Assembly: GCA_017458145.1 (NCBI GenBank)
Contig: JAFTGA010000015.1
Span: 115,046-179,045, forward strand
DNA length: 64,000 nt
Direction: 5' to 3'
Source of the DNA: Bacteroidales bacterium
GTDB taxonomy: Bacteria; Bacteroidota; Bacteroidia; Bacteroidales; UBA932
Positions 29,249-46,128 of this stretch are shown in pieces (position 1 is the first letter of the stretch; every line of letters starts with the position of its first letter). The translations under genes and the position numbers were made by a program. The notes under the pieces are model-generated. The model had not been told where the DNA came from. It made no database searches and saw only the letters and a list, made by a program, of their open reading frames with translations.

Positions 29249-29267
29249 CGCTTTGGTTAGTTCAAGT

Positions 29268-29735
29268 ATGAAAGTCAGCATTATCATGGGTTCCAAAAGC
29301 GACTGGGAGGTGATGTCAGCCGCTTGTGAAACGCTCGAACAGTTCGGGGTCCCCTACGAAAAAAAAGTCATCAGCGCCCATCGCACTCCGCAATTTTTCT
29401 GTGACTACATGGCTGCGGCCCGCGACCGCGGGGTGGACATCGTCATCGCTGGTGCCGGCGGTGCGGCCCACCTGCCCGGGATGGCTGCGGCCCTGACCTC
29501 GCTCCCGGTGATCGGCATCCCGATCCGGAGCAAGGCGCTGAATGGCCTGGACTCCCTGCTGTCCATCGTCCAGATGCCCTCCGGCATCCCCGTGGCGACG
29601 ATGGCGATCGACGGGGCGAAGAATGCCGCCCTGTATGCTGTCTCGATCCTCGCCCTGCAGGACGCCGCGCTCGCTGCCAGGTATGAGGACTTCCGGAAGA
29701 AACAAGCAGAAAAGGTCCTTCGAACCGAGATATAG
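29268..29735 (+). CDS. purE: 5-(carboxyamino)imidazole ribonucleotide mutase
   Basis: A 155-residue PurE with [19 protein letters not shown] (active-site His) and [11 protein letters not shown] motifs. It converts N5-CAIR to CAIR in IMP synthesis, or acts on AIR and CO2 if class II. No purK is present nearby, so the class cannot be decided from context. The start at 29268 was chosen for the family N-terminus [12 protein letters not shown] and lies 19 bases after the -7 box. First gene of a nine-gene unit with gaps of only a few bases. Confidence 0.95.
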
Positions 29736-29737
29736 CC

Positions 29738-32700
29738 ATGAATGCACATCGCATCTATGTAGAAAAGTATTCGCAGTTCCAGGTTGAGGCGCAGAGCCTC
29801 AAGAACGAATTCAACGAAAACCTTTCTCTGAAGCTGCGTACCCTGCGGCTTCTCAACGTGTATGATCTTTTCGGCTTCTCCGGCGAACTGCTGGAGAAGT
29901 GCCGTTATACGGTTTTCGGAGAGGTGGTGACCGACTGCGTGTCGGACGACTGCCCGCTCGAAGGCCGGAAATACCTCGCCGTGGAATACATTCCCGGCCA
30001 GTTCGACCAGCGGGCGTCCTCCGCGCTGGACTGCGTCCACCTGATCGACCCGTCCGCCGACGTGCAGATCCGCTCCTCGCGCCTGCTCATTTTCGATGAC
30101 GACCTGTCCGATGCGGACCTGGCCGCCATCCGCCACTATTATATCAATGTGGTGGAGTCCCGTCCGAAGGACCTGGACCGTCTGCAGCCCGAAGGCAAGG
30201 CGGAGGTCAGGCCGCTCTCGGACCTTGCGGGCTTCACGCAGATGGCCCCGGCGGATTATGCCGCCTTCTGCAGGAAGTGGGGCCTGGCGATGAATACCGA
30301 CGACCTCGCCGAGGTGGTGCGCTATTTTACGGCCGAGGGCCGCGATCCGTCCGAGACGGAGCTGCGCATCCTGGACACCTACTGGAGCGACCATTGCCGC
30401 CATACGACCTTCACCACCGAACTGACGGAGGTCAAGGTGGAGGACTCCTTCGCCAAGGAGGAGATCGAGGCGGAGTACCGCGAATTCCTGGAGATCCGCC
30501 GGGAGCTCGGTCGCGAGCACAAAAGCCTCTGCCTGATGGAGCTGGCGACGATCGGCGCCCGGGTGCTCCGCAAGCGGGGCCTGCTGGAGGATCTCGAGCA
30601 GAGCGAGGAGAACAACGCCTGCAGCATCTTCGTGGATGTGGAGGTGGACGGCAGACCGGAAAAATGGCTTCTGCAGTTCAAGAACGAGACGCACAACCAC
30701 CCGACGGAAATCGAGCCTTTCGGCGGCGCGGCCACTTGCCTGGGCGGTGCGATCCGGGACCCGCTCTCCGGCCGGGCCTATGTCTATCAGGCGATGCGCG
30801 TGACGGGTGCGGGCGATATCAATGCCGCCGTGAAGGACACCCTGCCGGGCAAGCTCCCGCAGCGCATGATCAGCCGCAAGGCAGCCGCAGGCTACTCCAG
30901 CTACGGCAACCAAATCGGCCTCGCGACCACCCATGTGCGTGAAATCTATCATCCCGGTTATACCGCCAAGCGCCTCGAGGTGGGCGCCGTGGTGGGGGCG
31001 GTCCGGGCGGACAGCGTCCGTCGCGAGAGCCCTGCCCCCGGCGACGTGATCCTGATGCTGGGCGGCCGCACGGGCCGCGACGGCATCGGCGGCGCCACCG
31101 GTTCTTCCAAGGAGCATACCGAGGCTTCGATCGAGACCTGCGGCAGCGAGGTCCAGAAGGGCAACGCCCCTGAGGAACGCAAGCTCCAGCGGCTTTTCCG
31201 CCGTCCGGAGGTGACGCGCCTGATCAAGAAATCCAACGACTTCGGCGCGGGCGGCGTGAGCGTCGCGATCGGTGAGCTGGCCCCCGGCCTGGACATCTGG
31301 CTGGACCGCGTGCCGGTCAAATACAGCGGACTGAACGCCACCGAACTCGCCATCAGCGAGTCCCAGGAGCGGATGGCCGTGGTGGTGGAAGCCGGGGACC
31401 GCGCTGCTTTCGAGGCCTTCTGCGCCAGCGAAAACGTGGAGGTGACGCACGTCGCCGACGTGACGGACCGCGGCCGGATGCGGATGTTCTACCACGGGAC
31501 GACGGTCGCCGACCTCTCCCGCGAGTTCATCGACAGCGCCGGTGCGAAGCACTATGCGAAGGCGGCCGTCGGCGGCATCGAGGACATCGACCCGTTCCGC
31601 CGCGAGCCGGCGGGACAGACGCTGCGCGAAAAGATGGTCAGCACCCTGTCCGATCCCAATGTGGCTTCGCAGAAGGGCCTCGTGGAGATGTTCGACTCCA
31701 CCATCGGCCGCTCGACCGTGCTGATGCCTTACGGCGGAGCGCTCCAGGCCACCGAGACGCAGGTCTCCGTGCAGAAGCTCCCGGCGGACGGCTACACCGA
31801 CACCGCCAGCATGATGGCCTTCGGCTATGATCCCTTCCTGACCACCTGGAGCCCGTATCACGGATCGGCCTATGCCGTCGTGGACGCCTGTGCCAAGGTG
31901 GTGGCGGCCGGCGGCGACTGGTCCGGGATGCGCTTCTCCTACCAGGAATACTTCGAGCGGATGACCGCCGATCCGCACAGCTGGGGCAAGCCGCTGGCGG
32001 CCCTGCTCGGAGCGCTCAAGATGCAGACCGCGCTGGGCCTGCCGTCCATCGGCGGCAAGGACTCGATGAGCGGCACCTTCGAGCACATCTCGGTCCCGCC
32101 GACGCTGATCGCCTTCGGCATCACGACGGTGGACGCGGGCCGCGTCATCTCTCCGGAACTCAAATGGGAGGGCAATCGGCTCTACCTGATCCGGCATACC
32201 CCGCTGCCCAACCGGATGCCGGACACCGCGCAGCTGCGCGCGAACTGGGACTTCATCCACCGCGAGATTGCCGCCGGGCATATCGTGTCCGCGTGGGCGC
32301 TGGGACGCGGCGGCGTGGCCGAGGGCCTTGCCAAGATGGCTTTCGGCAACCAGTTCGGCGCCAAGGTCTCGGCCGATGAGCGGACCCTCTTCGATCTGGG
32401 CTACGGCTCCGTCCTCGTGGAGTCGGAGACGCCGCTGGATTTCCCGCAGGCGGTGTGCCTGGGCGAAGTGACCGACGGCGAGGACGGCAACCTGCATGTC
32501 AACGGCGAGCGCATCTCGCTGGAGCGCCTGATGCAGGCCTATGCCGGAAAGTACGCCAAAGTCTATCCGGCGGAGGTGGAAGCCGCCCATCCGTCGTTGC
32601 CTGCTTTTGCCCGCAAATTGCAGAAACCGCTGGCGGTGGAGCCCGTGCGCTGGAAGGGCGCTCCGGTCGACAGACCGCTGGTCTACATTCCCGTGTTCCC

Positions 32701-33478
32701 GGGCACCAACTGCGACTATGACAGCGCCAAGGCGTTCCGCAAGGCGGGGGCCGGGGTGGAGTTCGGCGTGTTCCGCAACCTCACCGGCAGCGATGTGCTC
32801 GAGTCTATCGACCGGATGGGCGCGGCCATCGACCGCTGCCAGATCCTGATGCTTTCGGGCGGTTTCTCCGCCGGAGATGAACCGGACGGCAGCGGCAAGT
32901 TCATCGCCAACGTGTTGAACAACAGTCGGATCGCTACTGCCATCCACGCGCTGCTGGACCGCGGCGGCCTGATCCTCGGCATCTGCAACGGCTTCCAGGC
33001 GCTCGTCAAGAGCGGCCTGCTGCCTTACGGCCGGCTGGGGATGGTCACCCGCGAGTCGCCGACCCTGTTCCGCAACGACATCAACCGCCACATCTCCCAG
33101 ATGGCCACGACGCGCGTATGCTCGACCCGCTCGCCCTGGCTCGCCGGGATGAAGGAGGGCGACCTGCATACCATTGCCGTCAGCCACGGCGAGGGCAAGT
33201 TCATGGTCTCCGAGGCCCTGGCGAAGGAACTCTTCGCCGCCGGTCAGGTGGCTTTCCAGTATGTGGATCCGTTCGGGGAGGAGGTCACGATGGAGGCCCC
33301 GTACAACCCCAACGGCTCTTACTACGCCATCGAGGGCATCCTCAGTCCGGACGGCCGGATTCTCGGCAAGATGGGCCACACGGAGCGCTGGGAGCCCAAT
33401 GTGTTCAAGAACATCGAAGAGGAGCTCTACCAGCCGCTCTTCGACAACGCCGTGCGGTATTTCAAGAAAAACCAATAA
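29738..33478 (+). CDS. purL: Phosphoribosylformylglycinamidine synthase, single-chain form
   Basis: A 1246-residue large-type PurL that makes FGAM from FGAR, ATP and glutamine. N-terminal and linker regions are followed by two AIRS-like halves (ETHNHPTEIEPFGGAATCLGG, GATGSSKEHTEAS and SIGGKDSMSGTF are visible in shorter pieces) and a C-terminal class I glutaminase from about residue 985. The glutaminase nucleophile is Cys1083 in LGICNGFQALV and the histidine is in VSHGEGKF, so this amidotransferase keeps its glutaminase, unlike PurF two genes on. Confidence 0.96.
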   Translation: MNAHRIYVEKYSQFQVEAQSLKNEFNENLSLKLRTLRLLNVYDLFGFSGELLEKCRYTVFGEVVTDCVSDDCPLEGRKYLAVEYIPGQFDQRASSALDCVHLIDPSADVQIRSSRLLIFDDDLSDADLAAIRHYYINVVESRPKDLDRLQPEGKAEVRPLSDLAGFTQMAPADYAAFCRKWGLAMNTDDLAEVVRYFTAEGRDPSETELRILDTYWSDHCRHTTFTTELTEVKVEDSFAKEEIEAEYREFLEIRRELGREHKSLCLMELATIGARVLRKRGLLEDLEQSEENNACSIFVDVEVDGRPEKWLLQFKNETHNHPTEIEPFGGAATCLGGAIRDPLSGRAYVYQAMRVTGAGDINAAVKDTLPGKLPQRMISRKAAAGYSSYGNQIGLATTHVREIYHPGYTAKRLEVGAVVGAVRADSVRRESPAPGDVILMLGGRTGRDGIGGATGSSKEHTEASIETCGSEVQKGNAPEERKLQRLFRRPEVTRLIKKSNDFGAGGVSVAIGELAPGLDIWLDRVPVKYSGLNATELAISESQERMAVVVEAGDRAAFEAFCASENVEVTHVADVTDRGRMRMFYHGTTVADLSREFIDSAGAKHYAKAAVGGIEDIDPFRREPAGQTLREKMVSTLSDPNVASQKGLVEMFDSTIGRSTVLMPYGGALQATETQVSVQKLPADGYTDTASMMAFGYDPFLTTWSPYHGSAYAVVDACAKVVAAGGDWSGMRFSYQEYFERMTADPHSWGKPLAALLGALKMQTALGLPSIGGKDSMSGTFEHISVPPTLIAFGITTVDAGRVISPELKWEGNRLYLIRHTPLPNRMPDTAQLRANWDFIHREIAAGHIVSAWALGRGGVAEGLAKMAFGNQFGAKVSADERTLFDLGYGSVLVESETPLDFPQAVCLGEVTDGEDGNLHVNGERISLERLMQAYAGKYAKVYPAEVEAAHPSLPAFARKLQKPLAVEPVRWKGAPVDRPLVYIPVFPGTNCDYDSAKAFRKAGAGVEFGVFRNLTGSDVLESIDRMGAAIDRCQILMLSGGFSAGDEPDGSGKFIANVLNNSRIATAIHALLDRGGLILGICNGFQALVKSGLLPYGRLGMVTRESPTLFRNDINRHISQMATTRVCSTRSPWLAGMKEGDLHTIAVSHGEGKFMVSEALAKELFAAGQVAFQYVDPFGEEVTMEAPYNPNGSYYAIEGILSPDGRILGKMGHTERWEPNVFKNIEEELYQPLFDNAVRYFKKNQ

Positions 33479-33485
33479 TCAACCA

Positions 33486-34208
33486 ATGTCAAAAGGACCG
33501 TTAATTTTTGAAGGAAACGAGAAACAGGTGTTCGCCACTGACCACCCTGACCAGGTAATCTTCCGCTACAAGGACGTGACTGTTGCCTACAACAACGTCA
33601 AGCGGGCCCGGTTCAAGGGGAAGGGCGCCCTGGACAACCAGATCTCGGCCATTCTGCTGAACTATCTGAACGAGAACGGCGTGGAGACCCACTTTATCGA
33701 GATGCTGGGCCCCCAGGAGCAGTTGTGCCGCAAGATCGAGATCATCCCCCTGCAGGTGGTCGTGCACAACCGCATCGCCGGTTCGCTGGCCACGCGCCTG
33801 GGCGTCGAGGAGGGCTATCGCCACGCCAATACCATCGTGGACCTCCGCTACAACAACGACGAGCTGGAGGATCCGTTCATCAACCGCGACCACGCCGTCG
33901 CGCTCGGCTTGGCTACGTATCAGGAACTGGACGGGATGTACAACATCGCCCGCCGGGTCAATGACCTGCTGAAGCCGCTCTTCCACAAGGCCGGCATCGA
34001 ACTCGTCGACATGAAGATCGAGTTCGGCCGTGCTTCCGACACCGGGGCCATCATCATCTCCGACGAGATCAGTCCCGATACCTGCCGCCTCTGGGACGAG
34101 GCCACCGGCGAACGGATGGACAAGGACCGTTTCCGGCTGGACCTGAGCCGCGTGGTGGAGAGTTATACCCATGTCCTGAACCGTCTGAAACAAGTAATCA
34201 ATTCATAA
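33486..34208 (+). CDS. purC: Phosphoribosylaminoimidazole-succinocarboxamide synthase
   Basis: A 240-residue SAICAR synthetase. The conserved N-terminal IFEGNEKQVF (KxxY-type ATP loop), VVHNRIAGSLATRLGVEEG, the ATP-site stretch LVDMKIEFG and DEISPDTCRLWD are present. The start at 33486 gives MSKGPLIFEGNEK. It follows purL by 7 bases; purF starts 1 base after its stop. Confidence 0.95.
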   Translation: MSKGPLIFEGNEKQVFATDHPDQVIFRYKDVTVAYNNVKRARFKGKGALDNQISAILLNYLNENGVETHFIEMLGPQEQLCRKIEIIPLQVVVHNRIAGSLATRLGVEEGYRHANTIVDLRYNNDELEDPFINRDHAVALGLATYQELDGMYNIARRVNDLLKPLFHKAGIELVDMKIEFGRASDTGAIIISDEISPDTCRLWDEATGERMDKDRFRLDLSRVVESYTHVLNRLKQVINS

Positions 34209-34209
34209 A

Positions 34210-35568
34210 ATGGGCGTATTGGCTGTTTATGGCGTCCGGAGCGCATCGACATACATCTACTACGGACTGCACAACCTTCAGCACCGCGGACAGGAAGGCG
34301 GCGGCATCATCACCTTCGACGAGGACGGGAAGAGCCACCGCTACCGGGGCCAGGGGCTGCTGAGCGAGATCTTTACCAACGGCGAACTGAACCACCTGCC
34401 GGGCACGATGGGCATCGGCAGCGTCAAATACGCTAACGCCGCCAAGGGCGGCCTGGACAACGTGGAGCCGCTTTTCTTCCACCACCAGACAGGCGACTTC
34501 GCCATCGCGGGCGAGGGCAACCTGGTGAATGCCAAGCAGGTGTCCGAGTACCTTGAGCGGCACGGGTCCATCTTCCAGACCCACACGGACAGCGAACTGC
34601 TGGCCCACCTGATCAAGAAGAACGGCAAGGAGGACCGCATCCAGCGGATCGTCAAGGCGCTGAACATGGTCGAAGGCGGCTTTACCTTCGTGATCATGAC
34701 CAAGAACCGCATCTATGCCTGCCGGGACAAGTATGGGATCAAGCCCCTGTGCATCGGCCGGATGGACGGCGGTTACGTGGTCAGCAGCGAGTCCTGCGCC
34801 TTCGAGATCATGGGGGCCGAATTCATCCGAGACGTGACGCCCGGCGAAATCGTGACCCTGGACCACCACGGCATCCGCAGCACGCTGTATTCGCAGTTCA
34901 ACCGCCACCGGATGTGTGCGATGGAGTATATCTACTTCGCCCGTCCTGACAGCGACATCGACGGCTGCAACGTCCACGCCTACCGCAAGGAGGCCGGACG
35001 GCGCCTGTACCGGGAATGTCCGGTCGAAGCGGATATGGTGGTCGGCGTGCCCGAATCCAGCCTCAGCGCCGCGATGGGCTACGCCGAGGAGAGCGGAATC
35101 CCCTACGAGATGGGGCTGGTGAAGCACAAATACGTGGGCCGTACCTTCATCCAGCCGGTGCAGTCGCTGCGCGAACTGGGCGTGAAGATGAAGCTCTCTC
35201 CGGTGCGGAGCATCGTGAAGGGCAAGCGGATCGTGCTGGTGGACGACTCCATCGTCCGCGGCACGACGTCGCTCAAGATCGTGAAACTGCTGCGCGAAGC
35301 GGGCGCCACGGAGGTGCACGTGCGCATCGCCAGCCCGATGATGCGCTTCACCTGCCACTACGGCGTGGACACCTCCACGCCGGAGGAACTGCTCTGCTCG
35401 CACCGCTCGCTGGAAGAGGCGCGTCAGGCCATCGGGGCCGATTCGCTGGGCTACCTGAGCCCGGAGTCCACGCGGGACTCCTGCTTCGGCTGTGCGGATC
35501 CCTGCCAGGCCTGCTTCACGGGCGAATACCCGACCCTGTTGTATGATGAATTGGTAGAAAACGAATAA
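34210..35568 (+). CDS. purF: Amidophosphoribosyltransferase-like PurF lacking glutaminase residues
   Basis: A 452-residue protein of the Bacillus-type PurF family, which makes phosphoribosylamine from PRPP and glutamine. The PRTase half is intact (VLVDDSIVRGTTS) and the four cysteines expected to bind a 4Fe-4S cluster align (CAMEYIYF, CHYGVDTST, CFGC/CQACFTG). The Ntn glutaminase half is not: the protein starts M-GVLAVYG where others have C-GVFGIxG, so the nucleophile Cys1 is missing; the HVRYxT arginine is Lys73 in SVKYAN; HNGNLVN is GEGNLVN. No upstream start could restore the cysteine, since an in-frame TAA precedes. It may use free ammonia or an unknown partner. Confidence 0.93.
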   Translation: MGVLAVYGVRSASTYIYYGLHNLQHRGQEGGGIITFDEDGKSHRYRGQGLLSEIFTNGELNHLPGTMGIGSVKYANAAKGGLDNVEPLFFHHQTGDFAIAGEGNLVNAKQVSEYLERHGSIFQTHTDSELLAHLIKKNGKEDRIQRIVKALNMVEGGFTFVIMTKNRIYACRDKYGIKPLCIGRMDGGYVVSSESCAFEIMGAEFIRDVTPGEIVTLDHHGIRSTLYSQFNRHRMCAMEYIYFARPDSDIDGCNVHAYRKEAGRRLYRECPVEADMVVGVPESSLSAAMGYAEESGIPYEMGLVKHKYVGRTFIQPVQSLRELGVKMKLSPVRSIVKGKRIVLVDDSIVRGTTSLKIVKLLREAGATEVHVRIASPMMRFTCHYGVDTSTPEELLCSHRSLEEARQAIGADSLGYLSPESTRDSCFGCADPCQACFTGEYPTLLYDELVENE

Positions 35569-35574
35569 TCAGAT

Positions 35575-36606
35575 ATGGCACAGTCTTACGAAAACGCAGG
35601 CGTGAACCTGGAGGCGGGCTACGAAGTGGTCCGCCGCATCAAGCAGCACGTCGCCTCGACGGCCCGTCCGGGCTCGATGGGCGGCATCGGCTCTTTCGGC
35701 GGGATGTTCGATCTCGCCTCCCTGGGCTACAAGGAGCCCGTCCTGGTGAGCGGGACGGACGGCGTGGGCACCAAACTCAAGATCGCCTTCGCGATGGACA
35801 AGCACGACACCATCGGCATCGACGCCGTGGCGATGTGCGTCAACGACGTGCTTGCGCAGGGCGCCGAACCCCTCTTCTTCCTGGACTACGTGGCCCTCGG
35901 GCACAATGTCCCGGCGAAGGTGGAGGCCATCGTGGCCGGCGTCGCGGAAGGCTGCCGCCAGGCCGGCTGCGCGCTGGTGGGCGGCGAGACGGCCGAGATG
36001 CCCGGGATGTATGAAGGCGACGAGTATGACATCGCCGGCTTCACGACCGGCGTGGTGGAGAAGAGCCGGCTGATCGACGGGTCGAAGGTGAAAGTGGGCG
36101 ACGTGCTGGTCGGGATCGCCTCCAGCGGCGTACACTCCAACGGATTCTCGCTCGTGCGCAAGATCGTCGCGGACGGAAGCCACCATTATTTGGACCCCGT
36201 GCCGGAGTTCGGCGGACGTACGCTCGGCGAGGTCCTGCTGACCCCGACGCGGATCTATGTCCGGCAGGTGCTCGACGTGATCCGCCGCTGCGACGTGCAT
36301 GGCGTGGCCCATATCACGGGCGGTGGCTTCGACGAGAACATCCCCCGCGTGCTGCGCGAGGGACAGGGCCTCGAGATCCGCGAGGGCAGCTGGGAGATCC
36401 TGCCGGTCTTCCGGGTGCTGGAGCAGTGGGGCGGCGTGCCGCACCGCGAGATGTTCAACATCTTCAATATGGGCATCGGGATGGTGCTGGTGCTGGACGC
36501 TTCCCAGGCGCAGCAGGCCATCGATATCCTTGCCTCCCACGGGGAGAAGGCTTCCGTCATCGGATGCGTGACCGACCGGCCGGGTGTCAATATCATCTTG
36601 AAATGA
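35575..36606 (+). CDS. purM: Phosphoribosylformylglycinamidine cyclo-ligase
   Basis: A 343-residue AIR synthetase that closes FGAM to AIR with [55 protein letters not shown] and [14 protein letters not shown] are family landmarks in order. Its stop overlaps the purN start (ATGA). Length is usual for the family. Confidence 0.96.
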
Positions 36607-37169
36607 AGAAGTTAGCAGTTTTCGCCAGCGGCTCCGGGACCAACTTTGAAGCCATCGCCCAGGCCTGTGCCGACGGGCGGCTGGACGCCGAAGTGGCCCT
36701 GATGGTCTGCGACAGGCCCGGCGCCGCCGTGGTGGCGCGTGCGGAGCGTTTCGGCATCCCGGCTTTCGTGGCTTCGCCGAAGGAGTTCGGCGGCAAGGCC
36801 GCATTCGAGCAGGAGGTCATCCGCCGGATGGACGCCGCCGGGATTGACCTGGTGTGCCTCGCGGGCTATATGCGCATCGTCTCGGACGTGCTGCTGGAGG
36901 CCTATGGCGGGCGCATCATCAACATCCATCCCTCGCTGCTGCCGGCTTTCAAGGGCGCGCACGCCGTGGAGCAGGCGGTCGAGTACGGCGTCAAGGTCTA
37001 TGGCATTTCGATCCATTGGGTGAATGCCGACCTGGACGGGGGGAAGATCATCGCCCAGCGGGCGTTCGAATACGACGGCGACGACCCGGAGGAAGTGCAC
37101 CGCATCGGGCAGAAAATCGAACATGCATTATACGTTGAAACCATAGATAAATTATTGAAACAGATATGA
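36603..37169 (+). CDS. purN: Phosphoribosylglycinamide formyltransferase
   Basis: A 188-residue GAR transformylase that uses 10-formyl-tetrahydrofolate. Visible are the phosphate loop [25 protein letters not shown], the catalytic [15 protein letters not shown] (Asn, His) and the Asp in [13 protein letters not shown]. The start at 36603 overlaps the purM stop; its own stop overlaps the purH start. Its two substrates, GAR and 10-formyl-THF, are the products of the PurD and FolD halves of the fusion protein two genes downstream. Confidence 0.95.
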
Positions 37170-38698
37170 GAGCGTTAGTCAGTGTAAGCGACAAGACGGG
37201 GCTCGTGCCGTTTGTGCAGGGGCTCCGGGAACTGGGTTGGACCATCATCGCCACAGGCGGCACGCAGAAGCTGCTGGAGGGCAGCGGTGTGCAGACCGTC
37301 GGCATCAGCGAGGTCACGGGTTTCCCCGAGATTCTCGACGGCCGTGTCAAGACCTTGCATCCCAAGGTGCACGGGGGAATCCTGGCGCGCCGTGACCTGC
37401 CCGCCCACATGCAGACCCTCGCCGAGCAGGGGATCGGGACCATCGACCTGGTGTGCGTGAATCTCTATCCTTTCCGCCAGACCATCGCGAAAGAGGGGGT
37501 CAGCATGGAGGATGCCATTGAGAACATCGACATCGGCGGCCCTTCGATGGTGCGCAGCGCCGCCAAGAACTGGCGGGACGTGACCATCGTCTGCGACCCC
37601 GCGGACTATGCCGCCGTCCTGGAGGAACTCCGCACCGCCGGAAAGACCTCCGACCAGACGCGGCTCAAACTCTCCGCTAAAGCCTACACCCATACCGCCG
37701 AGTACGATATGTGCATTGCAGGCTGGATGCGCCGGCAGGCCGGCCTGAATGAAAAACTCTTCCTCGAATACGATCTCAAGCAGCCGCTCCGTTACGGGGA
37801 GAACCCCCACCAGAGCGCCAATTTCTATGCGGCCCTCAGGCCCGAGTCCTATTCGCTGGCGTTCGCCCGTCAGATCCAGGGCAAGGAGCTGTCCTACAAC
37901 AATATCCAGGATGCCAACGCGGCCCTGAACGTGCTGCGCGACTTCTCCGACAAGCCCTTCTGCGTGGCGCTCAAGCACATGAATCCCTGCGGCGCGGCCG
38001 TGGGAGAGACCATCGAAAAGGCCTGGCAGGCCGCCTATGAGGCCGACAAGGTCAGCATCTACGGCGGCATCGTGGGCGTGAACCGCGAACTCACCGCCGA
38101 GGTGGCGCTCGGGATGAAACCCATCTTCCTGGAGATCGTGATCGCCCCGTCCTACACGCCGGAGGCGCTGGAAATCCTCTCCGCCAAGAAGAACCTCCGC
38201 GTGCTGGAGGTGCCGATGGAGCGCGGGGACCAGGTGCCGATGCAGTATGTCGGCGTCAACGGCGGGATGCTTGTCCAGCAGCTCGACACCGCCGTGGAGC
38301 AGGTCACGGAACAGATGTGCGTGACGAAGGTCCGTCCGACGGAGGCGCAGAGGGCCGACCTCGATTTCGGCTGGCGCATCGTCAAGCACGTCAAGTCCAA
38401 CGCCATTGCCGTGGTGCGCGACAATCACACCATCGGCGTGGGCGCCGGGCAGACCAACCGTGTCGGCTCGGCTGAAATCGCCCTCAAGCAGGCACAGGCG
38501 GCCGGATTCACCGAAGGGCTCGTCCTGGCTTCCGACGGTTTCCTCCCGTTCGGCGATACCGTGGAACTGGCCGCGAAATACGGCGTGAGCGCCATCGTCC
38601 AGCCGGGCGGCAGCATCCGTGACGAGGAATCCGTCGCCAAGGCCGACGAGCTCGGCATCACGATGCTCTTTACCGGGATCAGACATTTCAAGCATTAG
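37166..38698 (+). CDS. purH: Bifunctional AICAR transformylase / IMP cyclohydrolase
   Basis: A 510-residue bifunctional enzyme for the last two steps of IMP synthesis. The N-terminal MGS-like cyclohydrolase domain has IATGGTQKLLE and GRVKTLHPKVHGGILARR; the C-terminal transformylase domain has the catalytic KHMNPCG motif (about 269-275) and ends with PGGSIRDEESV and GIRHFKH. It also consumes 10-formyl-THF. Four-base overlap with purN and 6-base gap to purD-folD. Confidence 0.97.
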   Translation: MRALVSVSDKTGLVPFVQGLRELGWTIIATGGTQKLLEGSGVQTVGISEVTGFPEILDGRVKTLHPKVHGGILARRDLPAHMQTLAEQGIGTIDLVCVNLYPFRQTIAKEGVSMEDAIENIDIGGPSMVRSAAKNWRDVTIVCDPADYAAVLEELRTAGKTSDQTRLKLSAKAYTHTAEYDMCIAGWMRRQAGLNEKLFLEYDLKQPLRYGENPHQSANFYAALRPESYSLAFARQIQGKELSYNNIQDANAALNVLRDFSDKPFCVALKHMNPCGAAVGETIEKAWQAAYEADKVSIYGGIVGVNRELTAEVALGMKPIFLEIVIAPSYTPEALEILSAKKNLRVLEVPMERGDQVPMQYVGVNGGMLVQQLDTAVEQVTEQMCVTKVRPTEAQRADLDFGWRIVKHVKSNAIAVVRDNHTIGVGAGQTNRVGSAEIALKQAQAAGFTEGLVLASDGFLPFGDTVELAAKYGVSAIVQPGGSIRDEESVAKADELGITMLFTGIRHFKH

Positions 38699-38704
38699 TC
38701 GAAT

Positions 38705-40815
38705 ATGGCAAAAGACAAGAAAGTGCTCGTAGTGGGCGGTGGCGGACGCTGCCACGCCATCGTAGATGCGCTCAGCCGCTCCCCGCAGGTCGCGAAGATC
38801 TGGTGCGCCCCCGGCAATGCCGGCATCGCCGCGCAGGCGGAGTGCGTTCCGTTGAAGGATACGGACGTGCAGGGACTGCTCGCCTTCGCGCAGCAGCAGG
38901 GGATCGACCTGACGGTCGTGGGCCCCGAGGCGGCGCTCTCGGTTGGCGTCGTGGATGCCTTCCGCGCCGCCGGGCTGCGGATTTTCGGCCACACGCAGGC
39001 CGCTACCCGCATCGAGAGCAGCAAGGAGTTCGCCAAGGTCCTGATGGACAAGTACGGCATCCCCACGGCGGGCTACCGCAGCTTTGACGATTTCCAGGAG
39101 GCGCTGGACTACGTGAACGCCCGGCCGCTGCCGGCCGTGCTCAAATACGACGGACTGGCCGCCGGCAAGGGCGTCGTGATCGCCGCCAGGCCGGAGGAAG
39201 CCGAGGCTGCGTTGCGCAGCATGCTGCTGGACGAGGCGTTCGGCAAGGGCCGCGTGGTGGTCGAGGACTACCTCACCGGGCCGGAATTCTCCTTCATGGC
39301 CTTCGTGGACGGGGAGCGCGTGTATCCGATGCCCCTCTCGCAGGACCACAAGCGCGCCTTCGACGGCGACAAGGGGCCGAATACCGGCGGCATGGGCGCC
39401 TACACGGGACTTCCGTTCATCACGGAGGAGGACCGGACTTTTGCCCTGGAGCACATTCTGAAGGCCACGGCCAAGGCGATGTGCGCCGAGGGCTGCCCGC
39501 TGTCCGGCGTGCTCTACGGCGGCTTGATGAAGACCCCGGGCGGGATCAAGGTGATCGAGTTCAACGCCCGTTTCGGCGATCCCGAGACGGAGGTTGTGCT
39601 GCCGCTGCTGGAAAGCGATATCTATGACATTTTCGAAGCCGTGGCCACGGGCCGCGAGGCCGCCGCACCCGTCTGGCGCAAGGCCGTGACGCTCGGCGTC
39701 GTGCTGGCTTCCAAGGGCTATCCGGGCCATTACGACAAGGGCTTTGAGATCCAGGGCGTGGAGGAAGTCGATGCGCGCGTCTATCACATGGGTACGAAGC
39801 GGGACGGGGATCGTCTGCTCACCGCCGGCGGCCGTGTAATGATGGTCGTAGCCGAAGGCCGGGATATCCGCTCCGCGCAGCAGAAGGCGTATGCCGAGGT
39901 CGCCAAGGTCTCCTGCGAAGCGCTCTTCCACCGCCGGGACATCGCCCACGTGGCCCTGGATGGCCGGATCCTGGACGGCAAGGCCCTCTCGGACCACATC
40001 AAGGATGAACTGAAGGACCGCGTCGGGCGGCTGGAGGTCAAGTACGGCCGCAAGCCTTCGCTCGCGGTCATCATCGTGGGCAATAACCCGGCGAGCCAGG
40101 TCTATGTGCGCAACAAGGTCAAGTCCGCGATTTATGTCGGCATGAACTCCCGCCTCATCACGATGGCGGAGGACGTCACGGAGCAGGCGCTGCTGGAGAT
40201 GATCGGTTCGCTGAACCGCGATCCGGAGGTGGACGGCATCCTGGTGCAGCTCCCGCTGCCGAAGCAGATCGACGAGGAGCGTGTGATCGATGCCATCGAC
40301 AAGAGCAAGGATGTGGACGGATTCCACGTTCTCAACGTGGGAGACCTGTGGCTCGGACGTCCCTGCAGCGTGCCCTGTACGCCGAAAGGCATCCTGCGCC
40401 TGATCGACGAGAGCGGGATCGACCTCTGCGGCAAGACCGCCGTGGTCGTGGGCCGCAGCAACATCGTCGGCAAGCCCGTGGCGAAACTCCTGCTGGACCG
40501 CAACGCTACGGTGATCGTGGCGCATTCCCGGACGAAGGACCTCAGGAGCGTGACGCTCCAGGCGGACGTGCTGGTCGTCGCGGTGGGCCGGGAGAACGTG
40601 GTCACGGGCGATATGGTGAAGCCCGGGGCCGTCGTGATCGATGTCGGGATGAACCGCAATGCCGAAGGCCGCCTGTGCGGCGACGTGGACTTTGTCGGCG
40701 CCCGCCAGCGGGCTTCCTGGATCACCCCGGTGCCCGGCGGCGTGGGGCCGATGACCATCGCGATGCTGATGGAGAATACGGTCGAATGCTTTCTCGCCCG
40801 CGTGGAGAACAAGTG

Positions 40816-40816
<1 letters not shown>
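38705..40816 (+). CDS. purD-folD: PurD-FolD fusion: GAR synthetase fused to methylene-THF dehydrogenase/cyclohydrolase
   Basis: One uninterrupted 703-residue frame. Residues 1-417 are a full PurD: VVGGGGRCHAIVDAL, VVGPEAALSVGVVD, ATP-grasp KYDGLAAGKGVVIA, EFNARFGDPETE and the terminal FHRRDIAHVAL. Residues 418-703 are a full FolD beginning LDGRILDGKALSDHIK, with the catalytic Tyr/Lys segment YVRNKVK (about 467-473), DGILVQLPLPKQID, the NADP loop VGRSNIVGKPVAKLLL and the C-terminal PGGVGPMTIAMLMENT. No stop or start separates the halves. PurD makes GAR; FolD makes 10-formyl-THF; PurN uses both. The stop overlaps the next start (TGATG). Confidence 0.95.
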
Positions 40817-45114
<4,298 letters not shown>

Positions 45115-45144: not shown

Positions 45145-46128
45145 ATGGCTACATCCAACGTTCGTCCCGCGGATATGGAGCGGATTACGACCCCTGCCCT
45201 GGCGCAGGAATTCATCGAAGATCAAGTCAAGGAGCTGCGTGCGCAGATCGGCGACAGGAAGGTCCTGCTGGCCCTGTCGGGCGGCGTCGACTCCTCCGTG
45301 GTCGCGGCCCTGCTGATCAAGGCGGTCGGCAGACAGCTGGTCTCCGTCCACGTCAACCACGGTCTTCTCCGCAAGGGCGAGGCCGAGCAGGTGGTGCGCG
45401 TGTTCCGCGATGAGCTGGGCGCCAACCTGGTGTATGTGGATGCCACGGACCGCTTCCTGGACAAGCTGGCCGGCGTGGCGGATCCCGAGCAGAAGCGCAA
45501 GATCATTGGCGCCGAGTTCATCCGCGTGTTTGAAGAGGAGGCCCGCAAGCTGGAGGGCATCAGTTTCCTGGCCCAGGGGACGATCTACCCCGACATCGTC
45601 GAGTCTGGCCCCGTCAAGTCCCACCACAACGTCGGCGGTCTTCCCGAGGATCTGAAGTTCGAACTCGTGGAGCCGATCAAACTGCTCTACAAGGACGAGG
45701 TCCGCGTGGTCGGCAAGGCACTGGGCCTGCCCGACGGCATGGTCTTCCGCCAGCCGTTCCCCGGCCCGGGACTGGGCGTGCGCTGCACCGGAGCCATCAC
45801 GCGCGACCGGCTGGAGGCGCTGCGCGAGAGCGATGCCATCCTGCGCGAGGAGTTTGCAAAAAATGGCCTGGAGGGCAAGGTGTGGCAGTATTTCACCGTC
45901 GTGCCCGATTATAAGTCGACGGGGGTCAAGGAGGGCAGGCGCAGCTGGGACTGGCCGGTCATTATCCGTGCAGTCAACACGCGCGACGCGATGACCGCCA
46001 CCATCGAGGAGATTCCCTACAAGCTGCTCCATCACATCACGCAGCGCATCGTGACCGAAGTTCCGGGCGTCAACCGCGTGCTGTATGACCTCACGCCGAA
46101 GCCGACCGGCACGATTGAGTGGGAATAA
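45145..46128 (+). CDS. guaAB-like: Stand-alone GMP synthetase (ATP-pyrophosphatase subunit, no glutaminase)
   Basis: A 327-residue protein equal to the synthetase half of GuaA. It has [16 protein letters not shown] (43-58), [41 protein letters not shown] and the terminal [10 protein letters not shown], but no glutaminase domain. Archaea split GMP synthase this way (GuaAa plus GuaAb). Here it follows a complete, two-domain GuaA by 30 bases, and the two synthetase halves are clearly divergent rather than a recent duplicate (the ends read PPATIEWE and PTGTIEWE). It may use free ammonia, borrow a glutaminase, or act on another nucleotide. The symbol describes resemblance only. Confidence 0.9.

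Follow-up and report, generated by a model that had tools for sequence, protein, structure and literature searches.

A purine-operon PurF lacking its glutaminase nucleophile forms a Bacteroidales clade and is probably ammonia dependent

The purF gene in the purine operon of a Bacteroidales bacterium (family UBA932) encodes a protein that has lost the catalytic residues of its glutaminase and kept those of its phosphoribosyltransferase (PRTase), and it belongs to a clade of such proteins. The gene probably encodes a working PRPP aminotransferase with a dead Ntn glutaminase, which would make phosphoribosylamine from PRPP and free ammonia. The DNA analyzed, here called the window, is a stretch of 64,000 nucleotides from contig JAFTGA010000015.1. 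PurF is a textbook glutamine amidotransferase, and its N-terminal cysteine, Cys1, is treated as diagnostic.

Results

The PurF of the window lacks glutaminase catalytic residues

The purF gene lies at 34210..35568 on the forward strand, as do all features described below, and encodes 452 amino acids. We call the protein Met1 type, on the basis of its profile match, its alignment to a known structure and the clade analysis. It scores 459.8 bits against the NCBIfam purF profile TIGR01134 and so passes the cut-off of 350. Bacillus subtilis PurF (PDB 1ao0) aligns to residues 2-449 (E 9e-157), and identity to 1ao0/1gph is 52-53%. An AlphaFold model of moderate quality (pLDDT 82.6 overall, below 50 in residues 305-330) returned 1ao0 first by E-value (TM 0.88) and gives the glutaminase half a normal fold.

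The absence of Cys1, claimed by the original prediction from the DNA alone, is borne out by the alignment, in which Met1 falls on Cys1 of 1ao0; the start codon (34210..34212) stands where the Cys1 codon belongs. An upstream start restoring the cysteine is ruled out by an in-frame TAA at 34195..34197, which the prediction had also invoked against a longer N-terminus, and no ATG, GTG or TTG lies between this stop and the purF ATG. Arg73 is replaced by Lys73 (34426..34428), as predicted, and the His-Asn pair containing the oxyanion Asn by Gly101-Glu102 (34510..34515). The predicted Asn to Glu substitution is therefore real, but its number was off by one: the residue is 102 in the window's protein and in B. 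subtilis PurF according to the 1ao0 alignment, and 101 is what we take to be its number in E. coli PurF. Asp127 is retained. The PRPP-binding motif VLVDDSIVRGTTS (35233..35271) is intact, and so are the four Fe-S cluster cysteines Cys236 (34915..34917), Cys382 (35353-35355), Cys432 (35503-35505) and Cys435 (35512-35514); the prediction was correct on both counts, and in these two respects all 48 Met1 proteins described next agree with the window's.

The Met1 proteins form one clade

After exclusion of proteins with coverage below 90%, with fewer than 330 bits or identical over aligned columns, 144 distinct PurF proteins remained, 96 with Cys1 and 48 with Met1, among them that of the window. 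Position 1 is Met in 48/48 of the Met1 group and Cys in 96/96 of the others, and position 102 is Asp or Glu in every Met1 protein and Asn in every Cys1 protein. Arg73 survives in six of the 48, the window's not among them, compared with 92 of the 96 Cys1 proteins, and Asp127 in 43/48 compared with 96/96. His71 is replaced in all 48 and Gln86 in 39. The alignment across Bacteroidales that the original prediction had called for thus shows the loss of Cys1 and of the oxyanion Asn to be common to 48 proteins. In the same proteins the PRPP-motif positions 345-347 and 350-353 are kept without exception, together with Arg311, Arg321, Lys328 and the four cluster cysteines, and Gln318 is kept in 46. 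The glutaminase half is full length throughout (230-231 of 231 columns), and Tyr74, which we take to be a tunnel residue of PurF, is invariant in all 48. One subgroup of Cys1 proteins (L013, L016, L017, L019, L021, L022) has NNGQ, with Asn for the His of HNGN, and keeps Cys1 and Arg73.

A tree of 94 rows (42 Met1), inferred by a quick method without bootstrap and with columns 1, 73, 101-102 and 127 left out, places the Met1 proteins in one clade (SH-aLRT 100) nested inside the Bacteroidales Cys1 PurFs. Judged from these sequences, Met1 PurF is the descendant of one old loss among normal PurFs. The forks at the base of the clade are poorly supported in this quick tree; the retention of Arg73 in several members near the base (L091, L092, L096) would fit an order in which the nucleophile and the oxyanion Asn were lost first. 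In the Cys1 relatives examined the nearest upstream Met lies approximately 8-16 residues before Cys1, the start codons there being provisional, and Met1 genes have their start codon at the position of the former Cys codon.

The two halves of the protein have evolved under different constraint. The median ratio of dN in the glutaminase half to dN in the PRTase half is 2.58 in Met1 (302 pairs) versus 1.13 in family-level Cys1 proteins, for which the restriction to pairs with mean dS of 0.2-1.2 leaves only 19 pairs. In the glutaminase half median omega is 0.217 for Met1 and 0.045 for family-level Cys1 proteins; in the PRTase half the corresponding values are 0.067 and 0.077. These figures indicate that constraint on the Met1 PRTase has not slackened and that the glutaminase half is relaxed without being free. 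Of 220 PRTase columns, 89 do not vary within Met1, compared with 68 in family-level Cys1 proteins.

Met1 PurF occupies the normal purF slot of the purine operon

Upstream of purF in the window lie purE (29253..29735), purL (29738..33478), whose Pfam GATase_5 domain is intact with the motif GICNGFQ, and purC (33501..34208, start provisional), which ends 1 nt before purF. Downstream lie purM (35575..36606), purN (36603..37169, start provisional), purH (37166..38698) and a single 703-aa purD-folD ORF (38705..40816). The assignments of purE and of the downstream genes rest on ORF reading and on their conserved place in relatives, that of purC on its sequence and place. The spacing of purD and folD in some relatives is also compatible with a fusion.

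The order purE-purL-purC-purF-purM-(purN)-purH-purD recurs in the ten Met1 genomes in which we found no other PurF (see below), purN being unmatched in G302. The same purF slot is found in several Cys1 relatives (e.g. L225, L228, L145, L147); L226 and L227 have no purC match beside PurF, and in L154, L168 and L229 PurF stands alone. In 19 Met1 loci the purC-purF and purF-purM gaps, obtained by extrapolation, are shorter than 20 nt or are overlaps, except in G087, where they are 26-33 nt. No gene for a partner glutaminase lies between purC, purF and purM in these 19 operons and there is no room for one, so an operon-encoded partner for Met1 PurF was rejected.

Distribution of Met1 PurF

A PurF match at E 1e-100 or better was found in 69 of 299 sampled genomes of the family, and in the loci read from this search a match beginning at residue 1 proved to be Met1 and one beginning at residue 2 Cys1. 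Three genera (g1, g4, g16) account for the Met1 genomes, 38 in all, of the family sample and a genus sample of 61 genomes taken together, G001 being counted from fragments. In a sample of the order, 16 of 393 genomes have a match at the same threshold, the window's own included, and the other 15 loci all have Cys. Among the best 80 loci from 84,980 named species genomes, 17 are Met1 and 63 Cys1, and all 17 Met1 loci come from records named as Bacteroidales or Bacteroidia, among them Candidatus Cryptobacteroides choladohippi. By hand count, the forestomach of goat or roe deer is mentioned in five of these 17 records and five more have RUG names, which presumably denote rumen genomes, compared with one forestomach record and one RUG name among the 23 Bacteroidota Cys1 records of the same 80 loci. 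Because Met1 is one clade, this excess is suggestive only.

Other PurFs in Met1 genomes

The original prediction had suggested that a second PurF with Cys1 might be found elsewhere in the genome. This holds for the window's genome (80.5% complete), which contains GlmS and a Cys-bearing long-form PurF with the Cys, Arg and Asn motifs HECG, HLRYSTTG and GNFN. The long-form gene is interrupted by the edges of contigs C58 and C51, and its two parts (L004 1402-1773 and L003 3-1391) share the residues WRAKN. The long form occurs in ten of the 38 Met1 genomes (G000, G338, G290, G332, G316, G342, G015, G008, G058, G003). Ten genomes (G253, G144, G343, G342, G172, G289, G028, G036, G001, G055) proved on reading to have another short PurF, in every case with Cys1, GHVRY and HNGN and, within the stretches read, with no other purine gene of the window adjoining. 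Altogether, 19 of 35 tabulated Met1 genomes (the window's and 18 others) encode a Cys1 PurF, and one more, G022, has a second PurF as a fragment with its N-terminus cut off.

A second PurF was not found throughout the clade. Completeness is 95% or more in 19 Met1 genomes, and in 10 of these (G325, G302, G344, G045, G319, G023, G333, G047, G087, G140) searches with short PurF, long form, the MGGFFG type described below and the purF profile found no other PurF, the short-PurF search for G047 having used the genus sample instead of the family sample. A rule that Met1 PurF always occurs beside a Cys1 PurF was therefore rejected. These absences carry some risk, since the genome search was loose: the purF profile listed no GlmS in G302, G344, G319 and others, where one is expected, GlmS being only a distant match to that profile.

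A divergent Cys1 PurF (L024-L027, L230, L271-L273) has 50-54% identity to the window's protein and no adjoining purine operon genes in the stretches read; seven of its eight carrier genomes also have Met1 PurF, the exception being G027.

Glutaminase domains of GMP synthetase and PurL

The window contains tandem GMP synthetase genes, one with and one without a glutaminase domain. The first is a full-length guaA (43537..45114, start provisional; Pfam GATase and GMP_synt_C), and the second (45145..46128) encodes 327 aa with GMP_synt_C and no GATase, matching guaA_Cterm with 445 bits from residue 22 over profile positions 1-310 of 310. GATase-less GMP synthetases, of two sequence types, occur in 27 of the 35 tabulated Met1 genomes. 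They are also present in 8 of the 42 other genomes in the set of 80 genomes examined for them, all eight with Cys1 PurF (G299 and seven of genus g15), and so are not specific to Met1 genomes.

Nine Met1 genomes (G325, G344, G023, G087, G327, G140, G268, G298, G246), four of them only 80-88% complete, have no guaA_Nterm match over the cut-off, so that in them only the short GMP synthetase was seen; the Cys1 genome G039 also has none, and such a match is present in 14/14 control genomes. The 465-aa GMP synthetase of G039 (contig C22, L264 from 62 onward) matches the glutaminase profile at positions 1-75 only, apparently a partly lost glutaminase domain, to judge from its sequence, in a Cys1 genome.

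Absence of the GuaA glutaminase is associated with absence of a second PurF: it is missing in 9 of 15 genomes without a second PurF versus 0 of 20 with one (Fisher p 7e-5), and among genomes at least 95% complete in 5 of 10 versus 0 of 9 (p 0.03). On seven phylogenetically independent pairs the link is not significant (sign test, median p 0.125), its direction never being reversed. The underlying 35-genome table was compiled by hand and leaves out G240, G313 and G315, which are ambiguous or have no match to GuaA; the tree does not include G001, and G022 was scored as having a second PurF from its fragment. For genomes outside the guaA_Nterm test, full GuaA was called by ORF length and GATase-less GuaA by length or near identity to the window's copy.

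The PurL motifs GICNGFQ and GH(S/T)E are kept in 18/18 loci (13 Met1, 5 Cys1). Since PurL is intact in these loci and the window's genome has full GuaA and GlmS, a general loss of glutaminases was rejected.

Discussion

The original prediction offered three readings of the window's PurF: that it makes phosphoribosylamine from ammonia, that it depends on a partner glutaminase, or that it has a regulatory function and the reaction is left to another PurF. The first is the best supported: the PRTase is intact and constrained, the gene stands at its usual position in the operon, searches of the 19 Met1 genomes with completeness of 95% or more found it as the sole PurF in 10, and nine Met1 genomes have lost the GuaA glutaminase. 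With no other PurF found in those ten genomes, Met1 PurF most likely makes phosphoribosylamine there; a regulatory role is hard to hold for them, though it may apply in the window's genome.

We infer that the PRTase half is active and, in the cell, takes its nitrogen from ammonia, so that 5-phosphoribosylamine would be formed there from PRPP and free ammonia. The glutaminase half, being full length and under purifying selection, suggests some remaining role, and the retained fold presumably now serves structure, tunnel or regulation. Its old pocket may be the entry for ammonia, which would pass the acidic residue 102 and then follow the former tunnel past the invariant Tyr74. In species with both types, Met1 and Cys1 PurF may divide the work according to ammonium supply, and in the window's species the Cys-bearing long form may add glutamine-dependent flux. 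Two published observations are relevant here: E. coli PurF needs the N-terminal Cys for glutamine and can still use ammonia (PMC3261824, citing Mei and Zalkin), and ammonium is the preferred nitrogen source of rumen bacteria (PMC5552732).

The best reading, in our view, is an ammonia-dependent PurF that belongs to an incomplete shift from glutamine to ammonia. A more far-reaching version, which we put forward tentatively and think unlikely, is that both the PRPP to phosphoribosylamine step and the XMP to GMP step have moved to free ammonium, leaving glutamine only at PurL, with the dead PurF pocket as the ammonium entry port.

It could instead be that Met1 PurF is a PRTase subunit to which ammonia is delivered through the old tunnel by a docked glutaminase, either a separate protein or the domain of PurL, GlmS or a different amidotransferase. 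The conservation of Tyr74 in all 48 proteins, the full-length glutaminase half with its normal modelled fold and the intact PurL glutaminase residues in 13/13 Met1 loci would accommodate such docking. The operons hold no candidate, however, nor space for an extra gene between purC, purF and purM, and the disappearance of the GuaA glutaminase from nine Met1 genomes is a better fit to free ammonia; we consider docking rather improbable. It is much harder to sustain the view that Met1 PurF is a paralogue with a regulatory role or no function at all, phosphoribosylamine being made by a Cys1 PurF. The long form of the window's genome and the Cys1 PurFs or fragment in 20 of the tabulated genomes would be as expected, and a paralogue beside PurF has a precedent in the crenarchaeal PurF', which accompanies PurF in each crenarchaeon considered in PMC3261824. 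Yet ten genomes at least 95% complete keep the purine operon with no other PurF found, and more PRTase columns are invariant in Met1 than in family-level Cys1 proteins, which makes this view very unlikely. Removal of Cys1 by a sequencing or assembly error, which the original prediction had named among the findings that would undo it, is excluded by 48 distinct proteins from many separate assemblies that share matching losses and form one clade.

Met1 PurF shares with B. subtilis-type PurF the fold, the PRPP motif, the four cluster cysteines, the operon slot and about half of its residues. It differs in having neither Cys1 nor the stretch before it, in the change of Asn102 to Asp or Glu, in the usual replacement of Arg73, and in the replacement of His71 (48/48) and, mostly, of Gln86 (39/48). 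A second comparison is with the published description of crenarchaeal PurF' (Brown et al. 2011, PMC3261824). PurF' is likewise a PurF homologue without the N-terminal Cys, many members having Ala or Val at that position, and is encoded near purine genes; its ammonia-dependent synthesis is the authors' suggestion only. In the crenarchaea of that study each PurF' occurs beside a normal PurF, as Met1 PurF does in the window's genome and 18 others; Met1 PurF is the operon's own and is the sole one found in ten genomes.

Within Bacteroidales, PurF-like proteins that we call MGGFFG, a descriptive name, also lack Cys1 and HNGN (15 loci read, L054-L068). They differ from Met1 PurF in having approximately 33% identity and, in the one protein scanned, 180 bits against the TIGR01134 cut-off of 350, and 26 genomes in a searched set of 80 contain them, while the 38 Met1 genomes of that set have none. 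The GATase-less GMP synthetase, which corresponds to the ATPPase part of GuaA, is similarly an amidotransferase without a glutaminase, encoded in the same window and in many of the same genomes. It is a different enzyme acting at a different step, and in it the whole domain is gone, in contrast to the inactivated domain of Met1 PurF.

Since PurF' is known from Crenarchaeota, the lack of the N-terminal Cys in a PurF has a precedent. Among the titles and abstract openings returned by searches of open-licence papers, none concerned such a PurF in Bacteroidales. Within the reach of those searches, what is new is a bacterial clade with a Cys-less operon PurF that is the sole PurF found in many genomes and is accompanied in some by loss of the GuaA glutaminase.

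An operon PurF that is vertically inherited without Cys1, and is the sole one found in ten near-complete genomes, means that the annotation "glutamine-dependent" is probably wrong for these proteins. The mis-annotation would touch a clade of gut bacteria; the window's protein itself scores above the curated purF cut-off. The Met1 clade also lends itself to the questions of why the combination of glutaminase and tunnel persists elsewhere and whether high environmental ammonium permits a glutaminase to be discarded, and it supplies bacterial proteins with which the ammonia dependence suggested for crenarchaeal PurF' could be assayed.
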